A stretch of 39,614 nt of DNA from Chloroflexi bacterium HGW-Chloroflexi-8. GTDB lineage: Bacteria; Chloroflexota; Anaerolineae; Anaerolineales; Anaerolineaceae. Location: positions 1-39,614 of the forward strand of contig PHBS01000013.1 in NCBI GenBank assembly GCA_002841995.1. Reading direction: 5' to 3'. A program made the position numbers and the translations under genes. A model generated the notes under the pieces. It saw only the letters and a program-made list of their open reading frames with translations, was not told the DNA's origin and did not search any database. Shown in pieces: positions 1-10,431 of this stretch (the stretch's first letter is position 1; every line of letters begins with the position of its first letter).

Positions 1-344
1 GATACAAAATGGCAATTCTTACAATTCTGGTTCTTTATCCAACCTTACTGGGTCTCAGTACACTCATTGCATTTATTTTTCATGGTTTTCCAAGACCTTT
101 ACTAATTTTGATTACATTGGTCGTGTTGGTGCCGATTATGACCTATTTCATCATGCCATGGGTTACCCGCTTGTTCCGTTTTTGGCTCTATCCGGGAGAT
201 ATGGTGAAAAAAGTGGTTGAAAAGGGTTGCACACAAAGGGGAATTTATTCAATTTGTGAAAAAATCGCTAATGAAATCAAACATAAGTTAGTGCTAATCC
301 TGAGCACTAATTCAATTTTTGAAGAGATTATGTCGTTTCAATGA
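1..344 (+). CDS. Membrane protein fragment, C-terminal part (ABM-monooxygenase-associated tail type)
   Basis: The reading frame is already open at the left edge (codons from position 3), so the gene begins outside the window; the ATG at 9 is probably internal. The visible part has two hydrophobic segments (about residues 3-25 and 30-52 counted from that ATG) and the pattern YPTLLGLS...MPWVTRLFRFWLYP. From memory this resembles the two-helix membrane tail of antibiotic-biosynthesis-monooxygenase-like proteins, where a small soluble ABM domain precedes the helices. The soluble part cannot be seen, so the family call is an inference. About 45 residues continue past the usual WLYP end. The next gene starts 35 bases downstream on the same strand. 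Confidence 0.55.
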   Translation, partial: YKMAILTILVLYPTLLGLSTLIAFIFHGFPRPLLILITLVVLVPIMTYFIMPWVTRLFRFWLYPGDMVKKVVEKGCTQRGIYSICEKIANEIKHKLVLILSTNSIFEEIMSFQ

Positions 345-379
345 CTCTCAATAAAAAATTACCAGGAAGGAGATCGACC

Positions 380-1612
380 ATGGTCACAAAGATAGAAACA
401 ATCATCGTTGGTGGAGGACAGGGCGGTTTATCCACCAGCTATTTCTTATCCCAACTAGGTCTGGAGCATGTCGTACTAGAACAGGCTGGTAAGGCGGGAA
501 ACGTTTGGCGAAACGACCGATGGGATTCTTTTACCTTGCTTACACCAAATTGGTCTTTCCGGCTGCCAGGTGCAGAGTATCAAGATAAAGATCCAGAAGG
601 TTTTATGGCGCGGGATGAAATCGTCACTAGATTTGAACAATATGTCGAGCATTTCCATCTACCAATCCAATACAATGTTCGCGTAAACTCAATTGAACAA
701 AATGAGCTTTCCGGTGGATATCGCGTGAATACAGGAGACTCTACTTTGGAAGCAAGAAACGTTGTAATTGCTACTGGTCTTTTTCAGAAACCTAAAACCC
801 AAACAATTTCGCTCGATATACCTGAAAGAATTACCCAAATTCACTCAAGCGAATATCGAAATCCTGTGTCACTGCCAGATGGTGAGATACTGGTTGTAGG
901 TAGTGCCCAGTCTGGTTGCCAGATTGCAGAAGAATTGTATCAAAGCGGACGCAAGGTCTACCTGAGTATCGGTAGCGCAGGAAGGGCACCTCGCCGTTAT
1001 CGGGAGAAAGATGTATATGAATGGTTAAATCTGAGTGGTTTTTTAGATCGAACTGTTGATAAACTTCCATCTCCAAAGGCAAAGTTTTCAGGTAATCCGC
1101 ATGTTTCCGGGAAAGATGGTGGCAAGACACTAAATTTGCACAAATTTGCCCGTGATGGAGTCCAATTGCTCGGACGAATGCAGAGCATACATGATAATAC
1201 AATTTATTTATCATCGGATCTCAAAGAAAATCTTATCAAAGCAGATAAATTTGAGAGTGAGATCGTTAAGATGGTTGATCAATATGTTCTACGAACGGGG
1301 ATGTCAGTTCCCGAAGAGCAATTACCTGTTTTCCTTGATGGGTTTACTCAAAAAGAGATCACAGAAATAAACTTAGATTCAACCAATATTTCGACCATTA
1401 TTTGGGCGAATGGCTACAATTTTGACTTCTCCCTGGTCAAATTACCTGTTCGTGATGAGGATGGCTTTCCAATCCAAAATGGTGGTGTGACGGAATTCCA
1501 GGGATTATTCTTTGTTGGTCTTCCGTGGCTTAATAAACAAAAATCGGGACTACTTATTGGTGTTGGGGAAAATGCTAAATTCGTTGCCTCAGTTATTGCT
1601 TCAAGAAGATAG
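380..1612 (+). CDS. Flavin-containing monooxygenase-like FAD/NAD(P)H oxidoreductase (CzcO type)
   Basis: A 410-residue two-dinucleotide-domain flavoprotein. The FAD motif GGGQGG is at residues 11-16, followed by an acidic strand end (VLEQ) and GNVWRNDRWDS, typical of class B monooxygenases. A second Rossmann motif, VVGSAQSG, is at 172-179 and should bind NAD(P)H; IHSSEYRNP (154-162) sits where FMO-type enzymes have their linker. The frame is open from an ATG at 341, but the ATG at 380 is chosen because a strong Shine-Dalgarno, AGGAAGGAG, precedes it by a normal distance. Such enzymes hydroxylate or sulfoxidise small hydrophobic substrates with O2; the substrate is unknown. It lies just upstream of the cyclase-like cluster and could belong to the same pathway, although a gap of about 165 bases separates them. 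Confidence 0.85.
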   Translation: MVTKIETIIVGGGQGGLSTSYFLSQLGLEHVVLEQAGKAGNVWRNDRWDSFTLLTPNWSFRLPGAEYQDKDPEGFMARDEIVTRFEQYVEHFHLPIQYNVRVNSIEQNELSGGYRVNTGDSTLEARNVVIATGLFQKPKTQTISLDIPERITQIHSSEYRNPVSLPDGEILVVGSAQSGCQIAEELYQSGRKVYLSIGSAGRAPRRYREKDVYEWLNLSGFLDRTVDKLPSPKAKFSGNPHVSGKDGGKTLNLHKFARDGVQLLGRMQSIHDNTIYLSSDLKENLIKADKFESEIVKMVDQYVLRTGMSVPEEQLPVFLDGFTQKEITEINLDSTNISTIIWANGYNFDFSLVKLPVRDEDGFPIQNGGVTEFQGLFFVGLPWLNKQKSGLLIGVGENAKFVASVIASRR

Positions 1613-1778
1613 TATGATTTCTCTTTTTTTAGTATCTCAAAGCATGAATATTTAGAATCCCCCCAAGAATCCGCAGGAAAAAAATGACCACAGACATAAA
1701 GAAGCACCCCGAATCGAAATCTCGGGTAAAATTATTTATTAGATTTCTTATCTTATTGTTATAGGTGATTGTTTGTTG

Positions 1779-2246
1779 ATGCAAAATATTGAGGGCTCAA
1801 ACAATACTATTGTTGAACCATTAACAGTCGATACTATTCGCCATCTTTGGTCGAAAACTTACAATCCATATGGGAAACCTGATTGGTCCCATATATTTCC
1901 TTATTATCACGAAGATATTGTTTTTGAAGACAGTATTCAAAGGATTGATGGAATTAAAGAATTTACCCAAATGTGCAATCGATTAACGAACCGATGTGAA
2001 CAATTAAACATGGAAATTCAATCCATCGTCATGGAATCCAATATCGTGTTTTTCCAGTGGAAAATGGAAATGAGTTTTAAAAAGTACCCAATTACACCTG
2101 TTTATGGCTGTACAAAATTAACGATAGGAAGTGACAACCGAATCATCCACCAAAGGGATTATTTTGATCTATGGGGAGATATTTTCAATGCAATTCCATG
2201 GTTCCATCGCATGTACCGAAAGTTTTTACACAATAAATTTGGCTAA
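1779..2246 (+). CDS. SnoaL/NTF2-like small protein
   Basis: A 155-residue protein with the make-up of the NTF2/SnoaL cone fold: an N-terminal helix with HLW...YNPYGKPDW, then HEDIVFEDSIQRIDG, a central strand IVFFQWKMEMSF, and a final Y-D-x-W segment (RDYFDLWGD). Members of this fold act as isomerases, cyclases or hydratases on polycyclic or lipid substrates, or have no known activity. A TTG at 1773 is possible, but the ATG at 1779 is preferred because AGGTGA lies 10 bases before it. It is the first gene of a plus-strand run with an SDR, a desaturase-like flavoprotein and a tocopherol-cyclase-like protein, so it probably acts on their shared intermediate. That role is inferred from context only. 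Confidence 0.7.
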   Translation: MQNIEGSNNTIVEPLTVDTIRHLWSKTYNPYGKPDWSHIFPYYHEDIVFEDSIQRIDGIKEFTQMCNRLTNRCEQLNMEIQSIVMESNIVFFQWKMEMSFKKYPITPVYGCTKLTIGSDNRIIHQRDYFDLWGDIFNAIPWFHRMYRKFLHNKFG

Positions 2247-2274
2247 TTGTTTACCTGAAAAAGGATAACTCTTC

Positions 2275-3201
2275 TTGAAATTACCTGAAGAACTACAATT
2301 TATTGCAAATTCACGCATGCATCAAAAAACCACAACAACCCGCATGGATGGTAAAGTTTGTGTTATCACAGGCTCGACATCTGGAGTAGGGTATCAAGCG
2401 GCAAAGCACCTGGCTCAAGGTGGAGCAGATATCGTAATGGTCTGCCGAAACCCACAAAAGGCTACCGCAGTTCGAGATGAACTGCAGCTCCAATTTCCGA
2501 TTAATATTGATGTCATTCAGGCAGACTTTTCGAGATTTTCAGACGTGCGCAGAGCCGCTGATATGATCTGTAACCAATACCCAAAAATTGATGTGCTCAT
2601 CAACAACGCTGGCGTGCATTACACTCACCGAACGCTCAATGAAGAAGGAATTGAGATGGTGTTCGCAGTAAATCATCTGGCATCTTTTCTTTTTACCCGA
2701 TTGCTTCTCAATAAATTAATCGAAAACGCTCCCGCTCGAATCATCCAGGTTAATTCACAAGGTCACCGATTTGGTGGTCTCGATCTGGATGACCTTAATT
2801 GGGAGCATCGTCATTATCAAGGTCTGAAGAGCTATGGTGCGTCGAAGATTGCACAACTGCTTACTGTCTGGGAATTATCAGACAGACTTAATGGTTCGGG
2901 AGTTACGATCAACGCGGTGCATCCTGGCGAAGTGAAAACCAACATAGGAATGAATAATGAGCTAATCTATCGTTTATACAAAAGATACTTTCTTTGGTGG
3001 ATGTTAAAAGATCCCGAAATTTCCGGAAATGCGATCTATTTTCATGCTGCGGCTCCAGAAATGGCAAACGTAAGTGGAAGATTTTTTAACCTGACGATTG
3101 ATGAAAAACCTGCCAAGTACGCTGTAGATCGCTCACTCAGTACAAAAATCTGGAAAATCAGTGAAGAAATGACCGGATTAAGTGAAAAGGATGGTTTATG
3201 A
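2275..3201 (+). CDS. Short-chain dehydrogenase/reductase, retinol-dehydrogenase-like
   Basis: A 308-residue classical SDR. The cofactor motif TGSTSGVG is at 32-39, NNAG at 110-113, the catalytic serine at 161 (VNSQGH) and the YxxxK pair at Y187 and K191, so the active site is complete. The CRNPQKA segment after the second strand (arginine, no acidic residue) suggests NADP(H). The chosen start is TTG at 2275, preceded by AAGGA with a 9-base spacer; no nearer ATG has a ribosome site that would keep the N-terminal extension. Within the SDR family it looks closest to the retinol dehydrogenase/WWOX-like group that handles hydrophobic alcohols. It begins 28 bases after the NTF2-like gene, which fits one transcript. 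Confidence 0.88.
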   Translation: MKLPEELQFIANSRMHQKTTTTRMDGKVCVITGSTSGVGYQAAKHLAQGGADIVMVCRNPQKATAVRDELQLQFPINIDVIQADFSRFSDVRRAADMICNQYPKIDVLINNAGVHYTHRTLNEEGIEMVFAVNHLASFLFTRLLLNKLIENAPARIIQVNSQGHRFGGLDLDDLNWEHRHYQGLKSYGASKIAQLLTVWELSDRLNGSGVTINAVHPGEVKTNIGMNNELIYRLYKRYFLWWMLKDPEISGNAIYFHAAAPEMANVSGRFFNLTIDEKPAKYAVDRSLSTKIWKISEEMTGLSEKDGL

Positions 3202-3289
3202 AAATTGTACAAGCCATTCTTTTTGTACAGAAATATCAAGATGATAATTAAAAACACAGCTTAACTTATCACCACTTTAAGGAGATCTA

Positions 3290-4870
3290 ATGAAATACGA
3301 TGCGATTGTCGTGGGAGGCGGGATTTCTGGATTAACTGCAGCAGCATTTTTAACCAAAGCCGGTTATCAAGTACTGTTATGTGAAAAAGAGAATAAATGC
3401 GGCGGACTTGTTAATTCATTCGAACGCGATGGATTTACTTATGATGGTGGTATCCGTGCGATGGAGAATTCTGGTGCAATGTTCCCCATGTTGAAATTAC
3501 TGGGAATAAATATCGAGTTTGTTAAAAACCACATTTCTCTTGGAATTGAAAATAAAGTGATCAATGTAAATTCAGAAGAGGATATTACTGCCTATCAATC
3601 GCTTTTATGTTCTCTTTATCCTGAAAACACGCAGGAAATAAACACAATAATCCATGAAATCCAGAAAATTATGCACTATATGGATGTCCAATATGGTATT
3701 GATAATCCGATATTTCTCGATTATAAGAAAGATCAAGCGTACATGGCCAAGGTTGTCCTACCCTGGGTTTTTAAATATGCTTTTACTGCCCCAAAAATAT
3801 CAGCTTTGAGCGAGCCAGTTGTTGATTTCTTAAAAAAATATACCCAAAATCAGGCTTTGCTGGATATTATCAGCCAGCACTTTTTCCATGATACACCAGC
3901 TTTCTTTGCCCTGAGTTACTTAAAACTTTATATTGATTATTTTTACCCGATGGGTGGAACCGGAAAGTTACCCCAAAGGTTGGTTTCTTTTATTGAATCT
4001 CACAAGGGCGAAATAAAAACAAATTCAGAGATTAGAAGTGTGGATCCCGATACAAAGACGATCTGGGATTCGCAAGGTAATGTTTATGAATATGAGCGCT
4101 TGATTTGGGCAGCAGATCTGAATTTATTGTACCGAATCATCAACCTTGAGAATATTACAGATCACAAAATTAGCCAGTCTATTAGCGCAAGACAGCAAGA
4201 GCTTCAGGAAAAGACGGGAAATGATTCGGTCTTTACATTGTTTCTGGGTTTGGATCTGCCAAAAGAATATTTTTCTGCCATTGCTACTGAACACTTCTTT
4301 TATACCCCCAGTCGACTAGGTCAATCTGAAGCGGGTGAGATCCCAAAAACCAACAACCGGGAGACAATTGAGAAATGGCTTGAAAAATTTTTTGCGTTGA
4401 CAACCTACGAAATTTCCTGTCCCGTTCTGAGAGATGATTCGCTAGCCCCAGCCAACAAAACGGGTTTGATCATTAGTGTTTTATTTGATTATGACCTCAC
4501 CAAGTCCATTGAGCGTGATGGGTGGTATGAAGATTTTAAAACATACTGTGAAACCCTCATAATTGAGACATTGAATGCGTCCATATACCCAGGAATCGCT
4601 CAGAAAATCATTCATCAGTTCTCCTCAACGCCACTCACCCTGGAAAAATACTCTGGTAACTTCATGGGTGCAATCACTGGATGGGCACTTAATAACAAAC
4701 CGATCCCTGCAGAAAGCCGAATTCCAAAGATCATGAATGCGGTTAAAACCCCAATTCCAGGAATATTTCAGGCAGGTCAATGGACATATAGCCCAAGCGG
4801 TCTACCAATTTCTTTCATTACTGGAAAAATTGCTGCAGATAAAGTTATTAAGGAAATCGGTAAACGTTAG
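3290..4870 (+). CDS. Phytoene-desaturase/carotenoid-isomerase-like FAD oxidoreductase
   Basis: A 526-residue flavoprotein of the amine-oxidase/CrtI-CrtISO superfamily (COG1233 type). The N terminus carries the dinucleotide motif GGGISG (9-14), then CEKENKCGGLVNSFERDGF, the usual second FAD contact. The C terminus has GIFQAGQWTYSPSGLP, matching the family's terminal FAD-contact segment, followed by the closing helix. The start at 3290 has a near-ideal AAGGAGATCTA leader. Known relatives desaturate, isomerise or saturate polyenes and retinoids; the substrate here is unknown and no phytoene synthase or polyprenyl synthase is nearby. It sits between an SDR and a tocopherol-cyclase-like gene, so a long-chain prenyl or polyene substrate is a reasonable inference. 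Confidence 0.85.
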   Translation: MKYDAIVVGGGISGLTAAAFLTKAGYQVLLCEKENKCGGLVNSFERDGFTYDGGIRAMENSGAMFPMLKLLGINIEFVKNHISLGIENKVINVNSEEDITAYQSLLCSLYPENTQEINTIIHEIQKIMHYMDVQYGIDNPIFLDYKKDQAYMAKVVLPWVFKYAFTAPKISALSEPVVDFLKKYTQNQALLDIISQHFFHDTPAFFALSYLKLYIDYFYPMGGTGKLPQRLVSFIESHKGEIKTNSEIRSVDPDTKTIWDSQGNVYEYERLIWAADLNLLYRIINLENITDHKISQSISARQQELQEKTGNDSVFTLFLGLDLPKEYFSAIATEHFFYTPSRLGQSEAGEIPKTNNRETIEKWLEKFFALTTYEISCPVLRDDSLAPANKTGLIISVLFDYDLTKSIERDGWYEDFKTYCETLIIETLNASIYPGIAQKIIHQFSSTPLTLEKYSGNFMGAITGWALNNKPIPAESRIPKIMNAVKTPIPGIFQAGQWTYSPSGLPISFITGKIAADKVIKEIGKR

Positions 4871-4982
4871 GCTGGTAACACCTAAAAATCTTTATGGTGG
4901 ATTTAATTCTTCTTTCTAATGACAGAAACTTAATTGATAAAATATATCGGAATAAAAAAGAAAATGATGAGGTAAATCAGAA

Positions 4983-5954
4983 ATGCGATTTCGAGCAGTA
5001 CTCAACCCTGCCACATACCATGGCTCTCATCAAAAGCCTCCATTTTTTGAGGGTTGGTACTTTAAATTGGTTAGCCTGGACGAAAAAAGCAAAATTGCAA
5101 TCATTCCGGGTGTCATTCTTGGCAAGGATGCACATGCTTTTGTGCAAATAATTGATGGCTCGGATGGAAAAACAGAATACTTCACCTTCCCATACGATCA
5201 ATTCCAGGCAGAGTTTCCACAATTTAAATTAAAAATCGGCAAGAATGAATTTGATTCAACTCGTCTTCTGGTGGATGTCAAGCAACCTGAGGGTCAATTA
5301 TTTGGTGAAATTAATTTTGGCAAATTAAATCCCTGGCCGGTGACTTTTCTTTCTCCTGGTGTTATGGGGTGGTACGCCTGGGTTCCGGGTATGGAATGCT
5401 ACCATGGTGTGCTAAGTTTTGATCACTCAATTTCAGGCAAAATTACCTTCAACGGAAAAGAAATGGATTTCAGCGGAGGTCGTGGGTACATTGAAAAGGA
5501 TTGGGGCAAAAGCTTTCCTTCAGCATGGGTATGGTTTCAAAGCAACCATTTTTTAAATAATTCCGCTTGCATCACAGCATCTGTAGCAGAAATTCCATGG
5601 ATAGGTAACAGCTTCAAGGGTTTTATTGTCGGCTTTTGGTTGGAAGGTGAGCTATATCGATTCACCACTTATCGAAGCAGTAAAATTGAATCTCTTGAAA
5701 TTTCTGAAGATCAGGTAGCCTGGGTGTTACGAAACCGCACTCACCGTTTGCGGTTGAAAGCTGTTCGTTCTCATGGTGGTTTACTGCGTGGTCCCACACC
5801 TCTGGATATGGGGAAGCGAGTGATGGAAACACTGAATGCTTCGATTCACGTGAGGCTTGAGACATTGAAAGGTGCTGTTCTTTTTGAGGGAATTGGCGAA
5901 AATGCAGGGCTAGAAGTGATTGGTGACCTGCAACGATTATTAGCGGATAAATAA
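4983..5954 (+). CDS. Tocopherol-cyclase-like protein (VTE1 family)
   Basis: A 323-residue protein with two hallmark blocks of the tocopherol cyclase family: near the N terminus NP...YHG...PPFFEGWYFKLV (8-30), and in the middle EKDWG...FPSAWVWFQSNHF (171-190), which matches the plant VTE1 block EKNWGxxFPxxWxWxQxN. In plants and cyanobacteria the enzyme closes the chromanol ring of tocopherols. Bacterial homologues outside phototrophs have no established function as far as I recall. The length is a little under the cyanobacterial type. There is no signal peptide. The start at 4983 has GAGG 10 bases upstream. It lies 112 bases after the flavoprotein gene and 11 before the hydrolase gene. The family call is secure; ring closure on a prenylated substrate is inference. 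Confidence 0.88.
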   Translation: MRFRAVLNPATYHGSHQKPPFFEGWYFKLVSLDEKSKIAIIPGVILGKDAHAFVQIIDGSDGKTEYFTFPYDQFQAEFPQFKLKIGKNEFDSTRLLVDVKQPEGQLFGEINFGKLNPWPVTFLSPGVMGWYAWVPGMECYHGVLSFDHSISGKITFNGKEMDFSGGRGYIEKDWGKSFPSAWVWFQSNHFLNNSACITASVAEIPWIGNSFKGFIVGFWLEGELYRFTTYRSSKIESLEISEDQVAWVLRNRTHRLRLKAVRSHGGLLRGPTPLDMGKRVMETLNASIHVRLETLKGAVLFEGIGENAGLEVIGDLQRLLADK

Positions 5955-5965
5955 TAAGGTCGGTT

Positions 5966-6847
5966 ATGACCAGTATTCAAGCAAAAATCATGATGAAGAT
6001 TCTTCAGCTCCGGGCTTTCAGCTGGGCCAATGGATCGATCGCAGAACAGAGATCAAGGCAGGAAAAAACAGCCAGGTTTTTTAAGATTCAAAGCGATGTC
6101 ATCATCACAGATCAAAACATAGATGGAATTCGAGCGGAATTAATCGATAGAGAGAGTACAAAGAAAGGTATCATTCTTTATCTTCACGGGGGTGCTTATG
6201 CTGTAGGATCCGTCAATGTCCATCGGGAATTTCTCGCGAGGTTGGGTAAAGCCTGTCAAATTAAAGTATTGGCAATTGATTACCGCCTTGCTCCTGAAAA
6301 CCAGTTTCCTGCGGCATTGGAAGATTCCTTAGCAGCCTATAGTTGGTTAATATCAAAAGGTTATGATCCATCAAATATCGTTATAGCTGGAGATTCCGCC
6401 GGAGGTGGTTTGGCGATTGCCACTCTGATTTCACTTCGGGATAGGAACAAGCCTCTTCCTGCCTGCGCCGTTTGCATCTCTCCTTGGGTAAATCTGTCTT
6501 ACACTTGTAAAAAAAGCAATAACAATAACGATCCAATTTTAAATCCTGAAATTCTAAGCACTTACTCGAGCTATTATGCAGGTCAATCTGATTCCTCTAA
6601 TCCACTGATTTCGCCAATATTTGCAAATTTACAGGGTTTGCCTCCGATGTTAATTCAAGTGGGTACAAATGAAATTCTTTTAGACCAAGTCCAACAATTC
6701 GTCGAAAAAGCCCGTCAGGCAGAAATTGAGATCCTAATTGATTTTTGGCAGGGATTGTTTCATGTGTTTCAAATCATCCCGATTATTCCGGAAACAAAAC
6801 TCAGCCTGGAAAAAATCGCGAATTTTATTGCAAGTAAAATTGAATAA
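5966..6847 (+). CDS. Alpha/beta hydrolase, hormone-sensitive-lipase family
   Basis: A 293-residue HSL-family (family IV) carboxylesterase. The oxyanion motif LHGGAY is at 73-78, the nucleophile elbow GDSAGGG has S144, the acid is probably E236 in VGTNEILLD, where many relatives have Asp or Glu, and the base is H266 in LFHVF. DYRLAPE (105-111) is also a family hallmark. It begins 11 bases after the tocopherol-cyclase-like gene with AAGG upstream, so the two are almost certainly co-transcribed. Enzymes of this family cleave short to medium acyl esters; here it may release or remodel an acyl group on the cluster's product. There is no signal peptide, so it should be cytoplasmic. Confidence 0.88.
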   Translation: MTSIQAKIMMKILQLRAFSWANGSIAEQRSRQEKTARFFKIQSDVIITDQNIDGIRAELIDRESTKKGIILYLHGGAYAVGSVNVHREFLARLGKACQIKVLAIDYRLAPENQFPAALEDSLAAYSWLISKGYDPSNIVIAGDSAGGGLAIATLISLRDRNKPLPACAVCISPWVNLSYTCKKSNNNNDPILNPEILSTYSSYYAGQSDSSNPLISPIFANLQGLPPMLIQVGTNEILLDQVQQFVEKARQAEIEILIDFWQGLFHVFQIIPIIPETKLSLEKIANFIASKIE

Positions 6848-6919
6848 CATACTTGAAAATATAAAGTTGTATACAGTCTTAAAAAAGATCAGGAATTTAA
6901 CCACCCGAAATGGGATGTA

Positions 6920-7027
6920 ATGGGAATTTTGAGAATGACACTTGAGATGATGTGCCATCATCCGGAAGTGATGTATCATAAAAAGTTAGAAGCCATGAAT
7001 TACGATTTGAAGCTTATTAAAAGTTAA
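6920..7027 (+). CDS. Very small hypothetical ORF or 3' gene remnant
   Basis: An ATG at 6920 opens a 35-residue frame ending at 7027 with composition MGILRMTLEMMCHHPEV...LKLIKS. The same frame is open back to 6857 (after a TGA at 6854) and upstream codons read as protein-like (KDQEFNHPKWDV), but no ATG, GTG or TTG lies there. It may therefore be the tail of a decayed gene rather than a complete small protein. It lies between the hydrolase and the YdeI-like gene on the same strand. No family was recognised and there is no clear Shine-Dalgarno. Confidence 0.25.
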   Translation: MGILRMTLEMMCHHPEVMYHKKLEAMNYDLKLIKS

Positions 7028-7048
7028 CTCAAAAAGGAAAAGAATTTT

Positions 7049-7627
7049 ATGAATCCTAAGGTTGATTTCTATTTTACTAATGAAGAAAAATGGCAAGCGG
7101 AAATTAAGAAATTGCGAACGATTATTCTTGATTTACCTTTGACTGAGGAATTGAAGTGGGGAGTTCCATGTTACACATTTCAAAAGAGCAACATCGTATT
7201 AATTCACGTTTTTAAAGAATACTGTGCATTACTCTTTATCAAAGGTGCATTGCTAAAGGATACGAATGGAATTTTGATTCAACAAACCGAAAATGTACAG
7301 GCAGCCCGCCAGGTTCGGTTCACCAACCTTCAGGAAATTGTTGAGTTGGAACCAATCTTGAAAACTTATATTCAAGAAGCCATTGAAGTTGAAAAATCCG
7401 GATTGAAAGTGAATTTTAAAAAGGCCACTGAATTCAGCATACCGGATGAATTTCTTAAAAAATTAGAAGAAATCCCTGATTTGGCTACTGCTTTTTATGC
7501 ATTGACACCCGGAAGGCAGAGAGCATACCTTCTTTATTTTTCTGCACCTAAACAATCGATAACCCGGGAATCAAGGATTGAAAAACATATAGAGCAAATT
7601 CTGGATGGTAAGGGATTAAATGATTAG
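7049..7627 (+). CDS. YdeI/OmdA-like protein with DUF1801 domain
   Basis: A 192-residue protein. Residues 15-115 match the DUF1801 (YdhG-like) pattern: LRTIILDLPLTEELKWGVPCYTFQKSNIVLIHVFKEYCALLFIKG is recognisable in pieces, with the central WG-P-CY motif. The C-terminal third, PDEFLKKLEEIPDLATAF followed by LTPGRQRAYLLYF and the arginine-rich SRIEKHIEQILDG, is the YdeI/OmdA helical domain. This two-part layout is typical of Bacillus YdeI-like proteins, whose biochemical role is not established. The start has AAAGGAAAAG at a usable distance. It follows the cyclase cluster on the same strand, 200 bases after the hydrolase; membership in that operon is uncertain. Confidence 0.8.
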   Translation: MNPKVDFYFTNEEKWQAEIKKLRTIILDLPLTEELKWGVPCYTFQKSNIVLIHVFKEYCALLFIKGALLKDTNGILIQQTENVQAARQVRFTNLQEIVELEPILKTYIQEAIEVEKSGLKVNFKKATEFSIPDEFLKKLEEIPDLATAFYALTPGRQRAYLLYFSAPKQSITRESRIEKHIEQILDGKGLND

Positions 7628-7987
7628 GATTTTGTAAAAATTAAAAATATGAATGTGGCATTTACAGGTAAGATCAAAAAAACTGAGATCCTCCATATTC
7701 AATTGGGTTCTAAAACGTAAATTTTCACAAGACCCAATTACGAAAAGCTTTCATATGATTTCCAGGTACTGATCCCATTCACATCCCGAATTAAGATTTG
7801 GAAAATGGATTTATACGGTTTATTTTATGGCAGGATTATAATTTTTATATATAAAATTTCCGTCAATAGGAATATCCTATAACATTACTTTTTTTGTTTA
7901 ATGTATGGCTGGAGTCTACTTGCGTTCAACATAAATATTTTATTAAATTTTAAAATCAAATCAAGATTGTTGGAGGTCGAGCTCAAT
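7628..7987. other. Intergenic region with a weak hairpin
   Basis: No convincing gene in about 360 bases. An inverted repeat, AATTGGGT (7701-7708) with ACCCAATT (7732-7739), could form an 8-bp stem with a 23-base loop downstream of the YdeI-like gene, but it is not followed by a T tract. The rest is AT-rich and leads to the GGAGG at 7972-7976 of the next gene. Confidence 0.4.
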
Positions 7988-9214
7988 ATGGATTTACTGC
8001 CCTGGGCGGTCATGGCAATTTTATCTACTCTGACAGGAATCCTTTTGGTCCTGTTTCTGGTCTCATCTCCCTTAAGGATGAGCTTCTTTCTATTTCTTTT
8101 CCTGATTCTACTCGGTGGGGCAATAGCTTGGGCGGTGATCTTTTTCACATCGCCGCAATTATTCTTAGTGATCATCTTTGGTTTGGTTTTTTTCATCGGT
8201 GGTTTTTTAGGTTCGACATTAGGCTTTCTCAATCAAAATGAAAATCGTGATTTACCAATGCTTACCCGTCAACCAGGAGAAAACGGTTTGGGTCACACAG
8301 CGGTGATTTACTTCACTCACGGAGAACCACCCGGATACGATCCATTTCCCTGGTTGGAAACGATTCGTGAATTTGACCATGATAACGTACCATTTATACC
8401 CTTCCCCTTTCGTCCATTCTTTTTCCACGGTATCAGAAAGGAATACTTACAAGCAGGTGGAAGTTCCCATAATCAGATCCATGGCTACATATTTCGTGCA
8501 CTACAGGCTTCTTTTTCCGAAACTGAAAAAGCAAAGTATCGATTTTTTCTTGCTTTCCTGGATAGCAATCCGCGCCCTGATGAAATGGTAATCAAGGCCA
8601 TCAATGAAGGTGCGGATCGAATTATTCTGCTTCCGATTTTCATTACAATATCAAGCCATACACTGGCAGGCCAAGAGATGGTGGCAGCGCTGGATCCAGA
8701 AAAATATGGTGTGATCGTTAAAATGGCTGAACCTTTGTGGAATTCATCCATATTAAGAGAACATTTCATTAAAAAAGCCGAGGTTGCCCGCGGGAACACC
8801 GATAGAGATCAAATTGGAATCCTGCTGGTTGGACATGGACAACCGAAAGCCTGGGATGGAATTTATCCGACTCAAACGGAGCAGGAAAATCTCTACCGGG
8901 ATGGAATCAAACAGACTTTTGTCAGTCAGGGTTACAAAGACGAAAACATTTTTTCTGCCTGGATGAGTTTCAAGAATCCTTCCATTGAAGAAGGATTACA
9001 CGCTTTAACCAGAAACAACATTTCAAAGATTTTGGTTTTCTCGGCCAGTATTAGTGCTGCTTCGTTACATAGTGAAATTGATGTCCCGAATGCAATAAAA
9101 AAAGCCAAAATCAGTCGAAGTATCCAGGTAATAAATATGGGCGCATTCGGAGATCCATTGGATCCACTCGTAATCAACGCAATCCGTGAAAGAATTCTAT
9201 CTTGTGCTGTGTGA
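7988..9214 (+). CDS. Membrane-anchored ferrochelatase/CbiX-like protein
   Basis: The frame is open from 7901, but the ATG at 7988 is preferred: GGAGG lies 11 bases upstream and the protein then starts at its first membrane segment, giving 408 residues. Three hydrophobic segments (about 6-25, 32-52, 57-80) precede a soluble part of two related halves. The first half has YFTHGEPPG (108-115), GGSS (157-160) and LPIFITISSHTLAG with H224 where ferrochelatases have their catalytic His. The second half has LVGHGQP (280-286) and HSEID (361-365), which resembles the ETLEEID block containing the catalytic Glu. Ferrochelatases insert metal into porphyrins; CbiX-type relatives insert it into sirohydrochlorin. 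No other haem or corrin gene is nearby, so substrate and metal are unknown. Confidence 0.72.
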   Translation: MDLLPWAVMAILSTLTGILLVLFLVSSPLRMSFFLFLFLILLGGAIAWAVIFFTSPQLFLVIIFGLVFFIGGFLGSTLGFLNQNENRDLPMLTRQPGENGLGHTAVIYFTHGEPPGYDPFPWLETIREFDHDNVPFIPFPFRPFFFHGIRKEYLQAGGSSHNQIHGYIFRALQASFSETEKAKYRFFLAFLDSNPRPDEMVIKAINEGADRIILLPIFITISSHTLAGQEMVAALDPEKYGVIVKMAEPLWNSSILREHFIKKAEVARGNTDRDQIGILLVGHGQPKAWDGIYPTQTEQENLYRDGIKQTFVSQGYKDENIFSAWMSFKNPSIEEGLHALTRNNISKILVFSASISAASLHSEIDVPNAIKKAKISRSIQVINMGAFGDPLDPLVINAIRERILSCAV

Positions 9215-9311
9215 TCGCTTTTTTTAAAAAAATATTGAGGCTACCTGTTTTCTCAATGCTGTTACAAATTGGCAGTTAAGTTGTGTTTTAAGGTACAAAT
9301 AATAATCACAC

Positions 9312-9342
9312 CAAAAGTCTGACCATGCGTATTAGACTTTTG
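9312..9342. terminator. Candidate bidirectional terminator between convergent genes
   Basis: CAAAAGTCT (9312-9320) and AGACTTTTG (9334-9342) form a perfect 9-bp stem around a 13-base loop. It lies between the ferrochelatase-like gene (plus) and the YajO-type aldo/keto reductase (minus), which converge here. The T-run is part of the stem rather than following it, so efficiency is uncertain. Confidence 0.45.
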
Positions 9343-9453
9343 AACATTGTCCTGGTTGGGGATTACCCCATTATTCCAATTGTTTGCGTTTCAACAATAA
9401 TGGATGTATATAATATCGAATTTTAAGTGATCAACAAACCAGCTTTATTGAAA

Positions 9454-10431
9454 TTACATATGACCCATTATTGGGCGAGGTTGATATGCCTCCTCCAAAA
9501 GTCGGATCTCGTCCGGAGTAAGTTGAACTGATAAAGAAGCGACAGCGTCTTCCAGGTGATGAGGTTTGGTGGCACCTATGATTGGGGCGGTAATAAATGC
9601 TTTAGACAACATCCAGGCTAGAGCCACCTGTGCCATCGGTAGACCGCGGTTTTCAGCCACATCACTTACCCTTTGAGCAGTTATCAAATCTATGTCCGAG
9701 GAATATCGTTTGCCGAACCCTTCTGAGCGAGAACGAAGCGTTTCATTTTGCCAATGTGATGACTTACGCGCCAGCTTCCCTCCAGCTAATGGCGACCAGG
9801 GGATCACAGCGATCTTTTGGTCCTGACAGAGTGGAAGCATTTCCCGTTCTTCTTCCCGGTAAACCAGGTTGTAATGCGGTTGCATGGAAACAAAACGAGT
9901 CCATCCATGCAGATCTGAGGTGAAAAGTGCTTTGGCAAATTGCCAGGCGTACATTGAAGATGCGCCGATATAACGGGCTTTACCAGCCCGTACCACATCA
10001 TTCAATGCTTCAAGTGTTTCCTCGATCGGCGTGTCATAATCCCAACGATGGATTTGATACAGGTCGACATAATCTGTTCTCAGACGTTTTAGACTGGCAT
10101 CAATCGAGCTGAAGATATGTTTACGGGAGAGACCTCGATCGTTGGGACCTTTACCCATCTCAGCGTAGACTTTTGTGGCAATGACCAATTCTTCCCGTGA
10201 AGCGAAATCTTTTAAGGCTTTACCAACAATTTCTTCGCTAGACCCATTTGAATAGACATCCGCAGTGTCAAAGAAATTGATACCTAACTCCAGTGCGTGC
10301 TTAATAAATGGCCGGCTTTGCTCTTCATCCAGCACCCATTGCCAGTGCTCTGACTGAATTCCGTAACTCATACAACCCAGACAAATACGGGAAACTTTTA
10401 GGCCAGTTGATCCAAATCGAACGTATTCCAT
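9454..10431 (-). CDS. Aldo/keto reductase (YajO-like)
   Basis: A 325-residue NADP-dependent aldo/keto reductase with the full catalytic tetrad D55, Y60 (FFDTADVY), K87 (IATKVY) and H128 (YQIHRWD). The N-terminal LGCMSYG and the dipping RWDYDTPIEETLEALNDVV segment are of the IolS/YajO group that reduces aldehydes and ketoses. The start has AGGAG in a good position on the minus strand. It is the last gene of a minus-strand trio (aldo/keto reductase, DUF2255 protein, this gene), with a 106-base gap to the DUF2255 gene. Base composition is visibly more GC-rich than in surrounding intergenic DNA. Physiological substrate unknown. Confidence 0.92.
   Translation of the reverse strand: MEYVRFGSTGLKVSRICLGCMSYGIQSEHWQWVLDEEQSRPFIKHALELGINFFDTADVYSNGSSEEIVGKALKDFASREELVIATKVYAEMGKGPNDRGLSRKHIFSSIDASLKRLRTDYVDLYQIHRWDYDTPIEETLEALNDVVRAGKARYIGASSMYAWQFAKALFTSDLHGWTRFVSMQPHYNLVYREEEREMLPLCQDQKIAVIPWSPLAGGKLARKSSHWQNETLRSRSEGFGKRYSSDIDLITAQRVSDVAENRGLPMAQVALAWMLSKAFITAPIIGATKPHHLEDAVASLSVQLTPDEIRLLEEAYQPRPIMGHM

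Follow-up and report, generated by a model that had tools for sequence, protein, structure and literature searches.

Several described systems resemble part of a five-gene run that we analysed in a stretch of DNA from Chloroflexi bacterium HGW-Chloroflexi-8 (Anaerolineaceae; contig PHBS01000013.1, positions 1 to 39,614), the whole of which we call the window. The chemistry of the tocopherol cyclase VTE1 is established, and VTE1 presumably shares the EKxWG...W.W.Q.N motif of a PF14249 protein encoded in the run (hereafter TC). NTF2-SDR-FAD clusters combine an NTF2-like protein, an SDR oxidoreductase and a FAD enzyme, a role that UfaD presumably fills in a Rhodobacter cluster of this kind. One study describes UfaD as a fatty-acyl desaturase acting on methylated acyl chains (PMC7380195). 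Prenyl hydration is described for RgCrtC, in which D268 serves as the acid and W110, W283 and W285 are needed to hydrate lycopene at its terminal prenyl unit (PMC12402844), and for kievitone hydratase, whose reaction is the hydration of a double bond in a prenyl group (PMC5805349). Carotenoid and staphyloxanthin clusters, finally, feature CrtI, a CrtQ/CruG glycosyltransferase and CrtO. The run is a partly conserved, uncharacterised gene set, assembled in this genome from recurring blocks, that probably acts on a hydrophobic, likely isoprenoid, lipid. It consists of five intact genes on one strand:

1779..2246, + strand: NTF2/SnoaL-like protein of 155 amino acids (SnoaL_2 and DUF2358 matches), which opens the recurring NTF2-SDR-AO block
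2275..3201, + strand: SDR oxidoreductase of 308 amino acids, PRK06197-like (adh_short match and motifs)
3290..4870, + strand: CrtI-superfamily FAD oxidoreductase of 526 amino acids, "AO" (Amino_oxidase and NAD_binding_8 matches)
4983..5954, + strand: PF14249 tocopherol-cyclase-like protein of 323 amino acids, "TC", with a predicted CrtC/AttH fold (Pfam match, predicted structure and alignment)
5966..6847, + strand: HSL-family esterase of 293 amino acids (Abhydrolase_3 match; HGGA and GDSAG)

The initial annotation had described five co-oriented genes with intact enzyme motifs and gaps of 11 to 112 nucleotides, and this description held: the open reading frames (ORFs) were confirmed, every Pfam family scored above its gathering cut-off, and the gaps, read 5' to 3', are 28, 88, 112 and 11 nucleotides. 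The closest homologues elsewhere are 71% (NTF2), 70% (SDR), 63% (AO), 82% (TC) and 72% (HSL) identical, and since homologues of each gene were recovered elsewhere (best 61–82% identity) we regard all five as real. The NTF2-like protein matched SnoaL_2 at 37.3 bits (gathering cut-off 27) and DUF2358 at 33.1 (24.3), and its predicted structure was too poor for use (pLDDT 54.7). The SDR matched adh_short at 120 bits (26.6) and carries TGSTSGVG, NNAG and YGASK; it scored 197.5 bits against PRK06197, below the cut-off of 268, and its single solved relative at E 1e-20 was 3rd5, whose name gives no function. Identification of the SDR as a DHRSX-like polyprenol dehydrogenase, a mere lead from literature abstracts, was dropped. 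AO matched Amino_oxidase at 67.8 bits (cut-off 19.8) and NAD_binding_8 at 57.1 (21.9), has the dinucleotide motif GGGISG, and found as its best PDB match by sequence the gamma-carotene desaturase 4rep (E=2.4e-13). An earlier label of AO as phytoene-desaturase-like is thus right as to the CrtI superfamily but goes too far as to the family itself, as AO scored 85.4 bits against NCBIfam crtI_fam and did not reach the cut-off of 238.1. The esterase matched Abhydrolase_3 at 196.2 bits (gathering cut-off 25).

TC resembles VTE1 in its score against Tocopherol_cycl (PF14249; 84.7 bits, gathering cut-off 26.6) but differs in that the C-terminal part of the profile alone aligned (positions 145-335 of 335) and in that TC is also found where no quinone prenyltransferase was recognised in the genome. 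By sequence, the PDB held no credible relative (best E 0.5). The predicted structure (pLDDT 94.4, pTM 0.92) had as its 18 best PDB fold matches kievitone hydratase, AttH NE1406, pericyclases (CghA, Phm7 and kin) and 25-phosphosteroid lyase (E 1e-10 to 8e-6, query TM 0.44–0.58, root-mean-square deviation 6–10 Å, 10–14% identity), all of which belong to the two-barrel calycin/AttH fold, and we place TC in the same fold. The likeness to the CrtC, AttH and kievitone hydratase superfamily extends to motif order and possibly to an acid and Trp signature. TC carries E23-x-W25-Y, Y169-x-E171-K-D-W174-G and W182-x-W184; E171, W25 and W184 are invariant in a 68-row alignment of TC relatives (A2), and W182 varies. 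Seven Chloroflexota proteins of the CrtC family PF07143 have EWWYY and WMD[RH]E[WF]G, followed 15 and 17 residues beyond the Asp by the two Trp of a W-x-W, which is the spacing of D268-W283-W285 in RgCrtC. Both families therefore show, in the same order, E-x-W-Y and then [YW]-x-[DE]-[RK]-x-[WF]-G...W-x-W. The latter of the two was composed after both families had been inspected; it is present in 67 of the 68 TC rows (not L070) and in all seven PF07143 rows, with Glu in TC against Asp in CrtC, and among 1116 neighbourhood ORFs it picked out 70, every one a TC match (70/70).

TC gave no match to Pfam CrtC at E 0.001, and a sequence-profile link between TC and CrtC was dropped as not significant. 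Because of the fold matches and the motif order we regard TC as resembling CrtC in fold and probably in mechanism; by score it is a member of PF14249. Its Glu171/Trp25/Trp184 signature resembles the catalytic Asp and Trp residues of CrtC, with E171 as the candidate acid, and modelled fold and sequence together suggest that TC adds an oxygen nucleophile across a double bond of a prenyl group by acid catalysis; the PF14249 score is not taken here to imply chromanol synthesis. The initial annotation had called TC a VTE1-family cyclase, and in support of its reading the fold and motif layout are those of enzymes acting at double bonds of prenyl groups. The same genome (G000) also encodes a PF07143 CrtC/AttH-family match of 201 bits (G000:C113:164-688).

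We then asked which parts of the run recur. AO relatives (E at most 1e-40) were found in 10 of 400 Chloroflexota genomes, where three candidates per genome were scored, and in 15 of 61 close-relative genomes, four of them shared with those ten; with locus L050 this gave 22 AO loci, at 20 of which an SDR gene adjoins AO. A close group (n = 11; 52–63% identical to the window AO) comprises the window, L050, L108-L112, L117 and L141-L143, with SDR beside AO in 11/11 and NTF2 near SDR or AO in 10/11. The exception without NTF2 is L117, where the contig edge falls inside a partial SDR gene and the order is SDR-AO-TC. L050 reads TC-AO followed by a convergent SDR-NTF2 pair, in L143 SDR and AO are separated by a CrtISO-like FAD gene, and the remaining eight loci read NTF2-SDR-AO in one direction. 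A distant group (n = 9; 42–46% identical; L114, L115, L134 and L144-L149) pairs AO with SDR (9/9) and with a small hydrophobic protein (9/9), of which two copies, 139 and 156 amino acids long, were scanned and had no Pfam match. In a third context (L113 and L116) AO stands with a CruG/HpnB-like glycosyltransferase (GT2) and a PF18927 CrtO acyltransferase, and L116 also has TC. The genomes of these two loci gave no match to phytoene/squalene synthase (PF00494, hereafter SQS_PSY), so that the layout is staphyloxanthin-like without a C30/C40 synthase. The AO relatives of G363 and G233 resemble carotenoid and staphyloxanthin clusters in having a GT2 gene and a PF18927 CrtO gene as neighbours, but neither genome has an SQS_PSY match, and the window's own genome has no PF18927 match.

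TC adjoins AO at four loci (window, L117, L050 and L116). HSL lies beside AO at three loci, with homologues adjoining AO modules in L141 and L145, and homologues also stand beside TC in L019 and L092. In two genomes of the window's genus, G007 and G004, the AO module has an HSL-DUF4256 pair on one side and a fused MsrAB gene on the other; the flanking genes are 79–82% identical and the AO proteins 44% identical, the module being of the close type in one genome and of the distant type in the other. These like surroundings suggest that either AO module type can stand in for the other and that HSL is part of the association. The initial annotation had proposed repeated co-occurrence of the five families in distant taxa as support for a pathway. 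What recurs is the blocks NTF2-SDR-AO, SDR-AO-TC, TC-AO and HSL with AO; the complete run was seen in its own genome alone among the genomes searched. Across the phylum, TC (E at most 1e-20; the genomes taken as the same 400) was present in 6 genomes, AO in 10 and both in 4 (G000, G016, G394 and G233), against 0.15 expected (hypergeometric p=2.9e-6; 7.8e-5 without the window's genome).

The substrate was approached through the isoprenoid genes of the host genomes. SQS_PSY had no match in the window's own genome (3.95 Mb, 93% complete), and the same search matched 7 of 14 control genomes. It was likewise unmatched in 14 of the 22 AO genomes, this one included, and in G016, G019, G394 and G233, where AO and TC are both present. 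Flexilinea flocculi, a cultured host whose TC is 62% identical to that of the window, had no PF00494 match, and its single PF01040 match was DPPR synthase, a non-quinone UbiA protein; G016, which has the trio and TC, also had no PF00494 match and DPPR synthase as its sole UbiA protein. Given the AO genomes with no SQS_PSY match, and F. flocculi and G016 with a non-quinone UbiA protein only, neither a carotenoid nor a quinol appears to be a required substrate. The known isoprenoid stock left in F. flocculi and G016 would be polyprenyl phosphate, and a polyprenyl-type substrate is favoured on that basis, with fatty acyl chains or an external compound as other possible substrates. The earlier proposal of a prenyl, polyene or quinone-derived lipid therefore keeps its general direction, and its carotenoid or quinone substrate does not seem to be required. 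For the window's genome the carotenoid reading is disfavoured by the missing SQS_PSY match, though it may hold for other TC genomes, and a CrtO acyltransferase route was set aside there for want of a PF18927 match.

From the computed genes, TC fold, motif layout, recurring blocks and missing PF00494 match, we infer a substrate, step order, redox direction, product and possible stress role as follows. The run is possibly, at somewhat less than an even chance, a composite operon in which a carotenoid-style module modifies a polyprenyl-type or other unsaturated lipid. Its core would be the NTF2-SDR-AO module. The SDR would interconvert alcohol and carbonyl on a hydrophobic chain, AO would insert, remove or isomerise double bonds, and the NTF2-like protein might help a double-bond shift or a binding step. 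TC, acting in the manner of CrtC or VTE1, would protonate a trisubstituted prenyl double bond with an acid, most likely E171, while W25 and W184 would stabilise the cation; addition of water or an internal hydroxyl at that cation would yield a tertiary alcohol or a cyclic ether. HSL may free or trim an ester of the substrate or product. In the window's genome the substrate would most likely be a polyprenyl-type isoprenoid such as polyprenol or polyprenal rather than a carotenoid, and it need not be a quinol. A broader version is doubtful: bacteria without a detected phytoene/squalene synthase would apply carotenoid-style enzymes (a CrtI-superfamily FAD enzyme, an SDR and a CrtC/VTE1-fold enzyme, with a CruG-like glycosyltransferase and a CrtO-like acyltransferase in some genomes) to a polyprenyl-type lipid, giving an isoprenoid not described before, whether hydroxylated, cyclic or glycosyl-acylated, which might serve an anaerobe as a membrane antioxidant. 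The case offers a testable, CrtC-like mechanism of prenyl protonation for which both obvious substrate classes appear dispensable. If Anaerolineaceae do have an isoprenoid pathway outside carotenoid synthesis, this poorly known phylum would gain a further lipid class.

Several results weigh against the polyprenyl reading. The case for a polyprenol substrate is indirect, and comparison of the TC and PF07143 profiles (hhalign) aligned 5 columns and was not significant. The phylum-wide p-values ignore kinship, and G016 and G394 belong to one genus, with AO and TC on different contigs in both. Within the family, TC occurred in 14 and AO in 15 of 37 genomes, and 9 had the two together where 5.7 would be expected (p=0.026); this overlap stems from the close AO group (TC in 5/6), that of the distant group with TC not being raised (4/9, p=0.46). 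AO may moreover be undercounted in the 400-genome scan because three candidates per genome were scored. SQS_PSY was more frequent in genomes having AO together with TC (7/12) than in those having AO alone (1/10; Fisher p=0.03, kinship ignored), and two of the four genomes in which the two genes adjoin also matched it (G012, 79 bits, and G451, 54 bits, both weak). By this enrichment TC may, over part of its range, track the capacity to make squalene or carotenoids. A menaquinol would be available in the window's genome, since MenA is present. Finally, at 67 of the 80 named TC loci the stretch examined encoded none of the other query proteins, some of these stretches being short contigs.

These points feed the competing explanations. 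In one, TC would cyclise menaquinol to a menachromanol-type antioxidant whose prenyl tail the trio tailors, as would be allowed by the PF14249 match, the established chemistry of VTE1 and, in the window's genome, MenA (341 bits, cut-off 264) and two heme O synthase matches also above a cut-off. These three are among six PF01040 matches of that genome, which include a DPPR synthase. TC nonetheless occurs in F. flocculi and G016, where DPPR synthase is the only UbiA match, and among the classified part of the neighbours at the listed loci none next to TC was seen to be a quinone gene; we consider this explanation unlikely. The run might instead tailor carotenoids or squalene, AO serving as desaturase or isomerase and TC as hydratase or cyclase of the terminal prenyl end. 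CruF lies directly downstream of TC in six of the 80 loci and 2.3 kb away in a seventh, a link on which the polyprenyl reading also draws, five of six such genomes tested have SQS_PSY, and AO is of the CrtI superfamily, as would be expected; set against this, AO falls below the crtI_fam cut-off, and SQS_PSY is unmatched in F. flocculi and in five genomes with both genes, the window's own among them. We rate carotenoid or squalene tailoring below both the chromanol explanation and the fatty-acid one considered next.

Fatty-acid modification under oxidative stress, as a counterpart of the Vibrionaceae and Rhodobacter clusters, ranks between those two and is also unlikely. The window NTF2 matches seven plasmid-collection records from Salinivibrio, Photobacterium and Aeromonas, and the one read in context, from Salinivibrio proteolyticus (L124), has the order phrB-NTF2-SDR-FAD-DUF1365-CFA-DUF2878-x-DUF3833, in a Vibrionaceae cluster that we take to be of ChrR/RpoE type. 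The NTF2-SDR-FAD order is the same and the NTF2 (30% identical) and SDR (25%) proteins are related, but the Salinivibrio FAD enzyme is of another family, aligning with AO at the dinucleotide motif alone, and DUF1365, CFA, DUF2878 and DUF3833 are absent from the run, which has TC and HSL instead. As the layout is shared and the redox enzyme is not, the Vibrionaceae cluster is a parallel and does not imply membership. The statement in the initial annotation that such a trio occurs in proteobacteria was accordingly borne out for the cluster with photolyase, DUF1365, CFA and a homologous NTF2, except for the FAD family. On the side of fatty acids stand the desaturase activity ascribed to UfaD in the study cited above (PMC7380195) and the genes near the AO modules of two congeners, which encode MsrAB, a SOUL protein (L141), and thioredoxin and AhpC/TSA proteins (L145); their oxidative-stress flavour, which also counts in favour of the polyprenyl reading, is suggestive only. 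A chance neighbourhood of independently acquired, functionally unrelated genes appears the least probable account: the full set in a single genome and the many TC loci without a partner fit it, but AO-TC, AO-HSL and TC-HSL pairings repeat in different genomes, and AO and TC co-occur across the phylum.

TC relatives were encoded in 380 stretches of one genome collection, in Chloroflexota and in loci titled Actinomycetota, Ignavibacteria and others, and the neighbourhood counts concern the 80 named loci out of the 380 found. The best named relatives were from Anaerolineaceae metagenome-assembled genomes (80% identity to UBA6133), and the window's own genome had one TC match. Among the 80 loci AO was near one and HSL near two. 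An excess of CrtI-like FAD genes near TC was set aside, as 4 within 3 kb versus 2 beyond were too few; the profile used for this count was built partly from L060 and L050. The window and L117 group in an eight-row clade (100/100) of the TC tree, with L050 and L116 elsewhere and CruF-linked rows at more than one place; a single origin of the AO-TC link or of the CruF-TC link may be compatible with the starred branches. Partial TC matches were seen in G004 (29 residues) and G005 (158 residues), and a second, partial copy lies beside the full one in G027 (L118:17215-17421); TC looks prone to decay or to being split by assembly. In a Monoglobus plasmid record (L127:5695-7783) a gene for a DAO-Rieske FAD oxidoreductase shares part of its length with a PF14249 gene. 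Two annotated plasmid records label TC-type genes merely 'tocopherol cyclase family protein', and no paper on bacterial PF14249 proteins was among the matches listed in a search of open-licence literature.

Upstream of the run lies one further gene:

341..1612, + strand: flavin monooxygenase (FMO), MSMEG_0569/ArsO-like (TIGR04046 match below cut-off)

Its ORF starts at 341, the start at 380 given in the initial annotation being the second ATG, and it scored 426 bits against TIGR04046 (cut-off 498). It had been suggested as a partner supplying a hydroxylation step; we rejected it as a member of the set, since the stretches scanned at the other AO and TC loci encoded nothing that matched its protein, and with a gap of 166 nucleotides to NTF2 it is probably outside the recurring set. 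Within positions 1-9500 of the window neither promoter-like sites (21 versus 26.3 in shuffles) nor terminator-like sites (6 versus 8.0) were in excess. Downstream, positions 7901-9214 encode a ferrochelatase/CbiX-like protein whose N-terminal region looks hydrophobic by eye.

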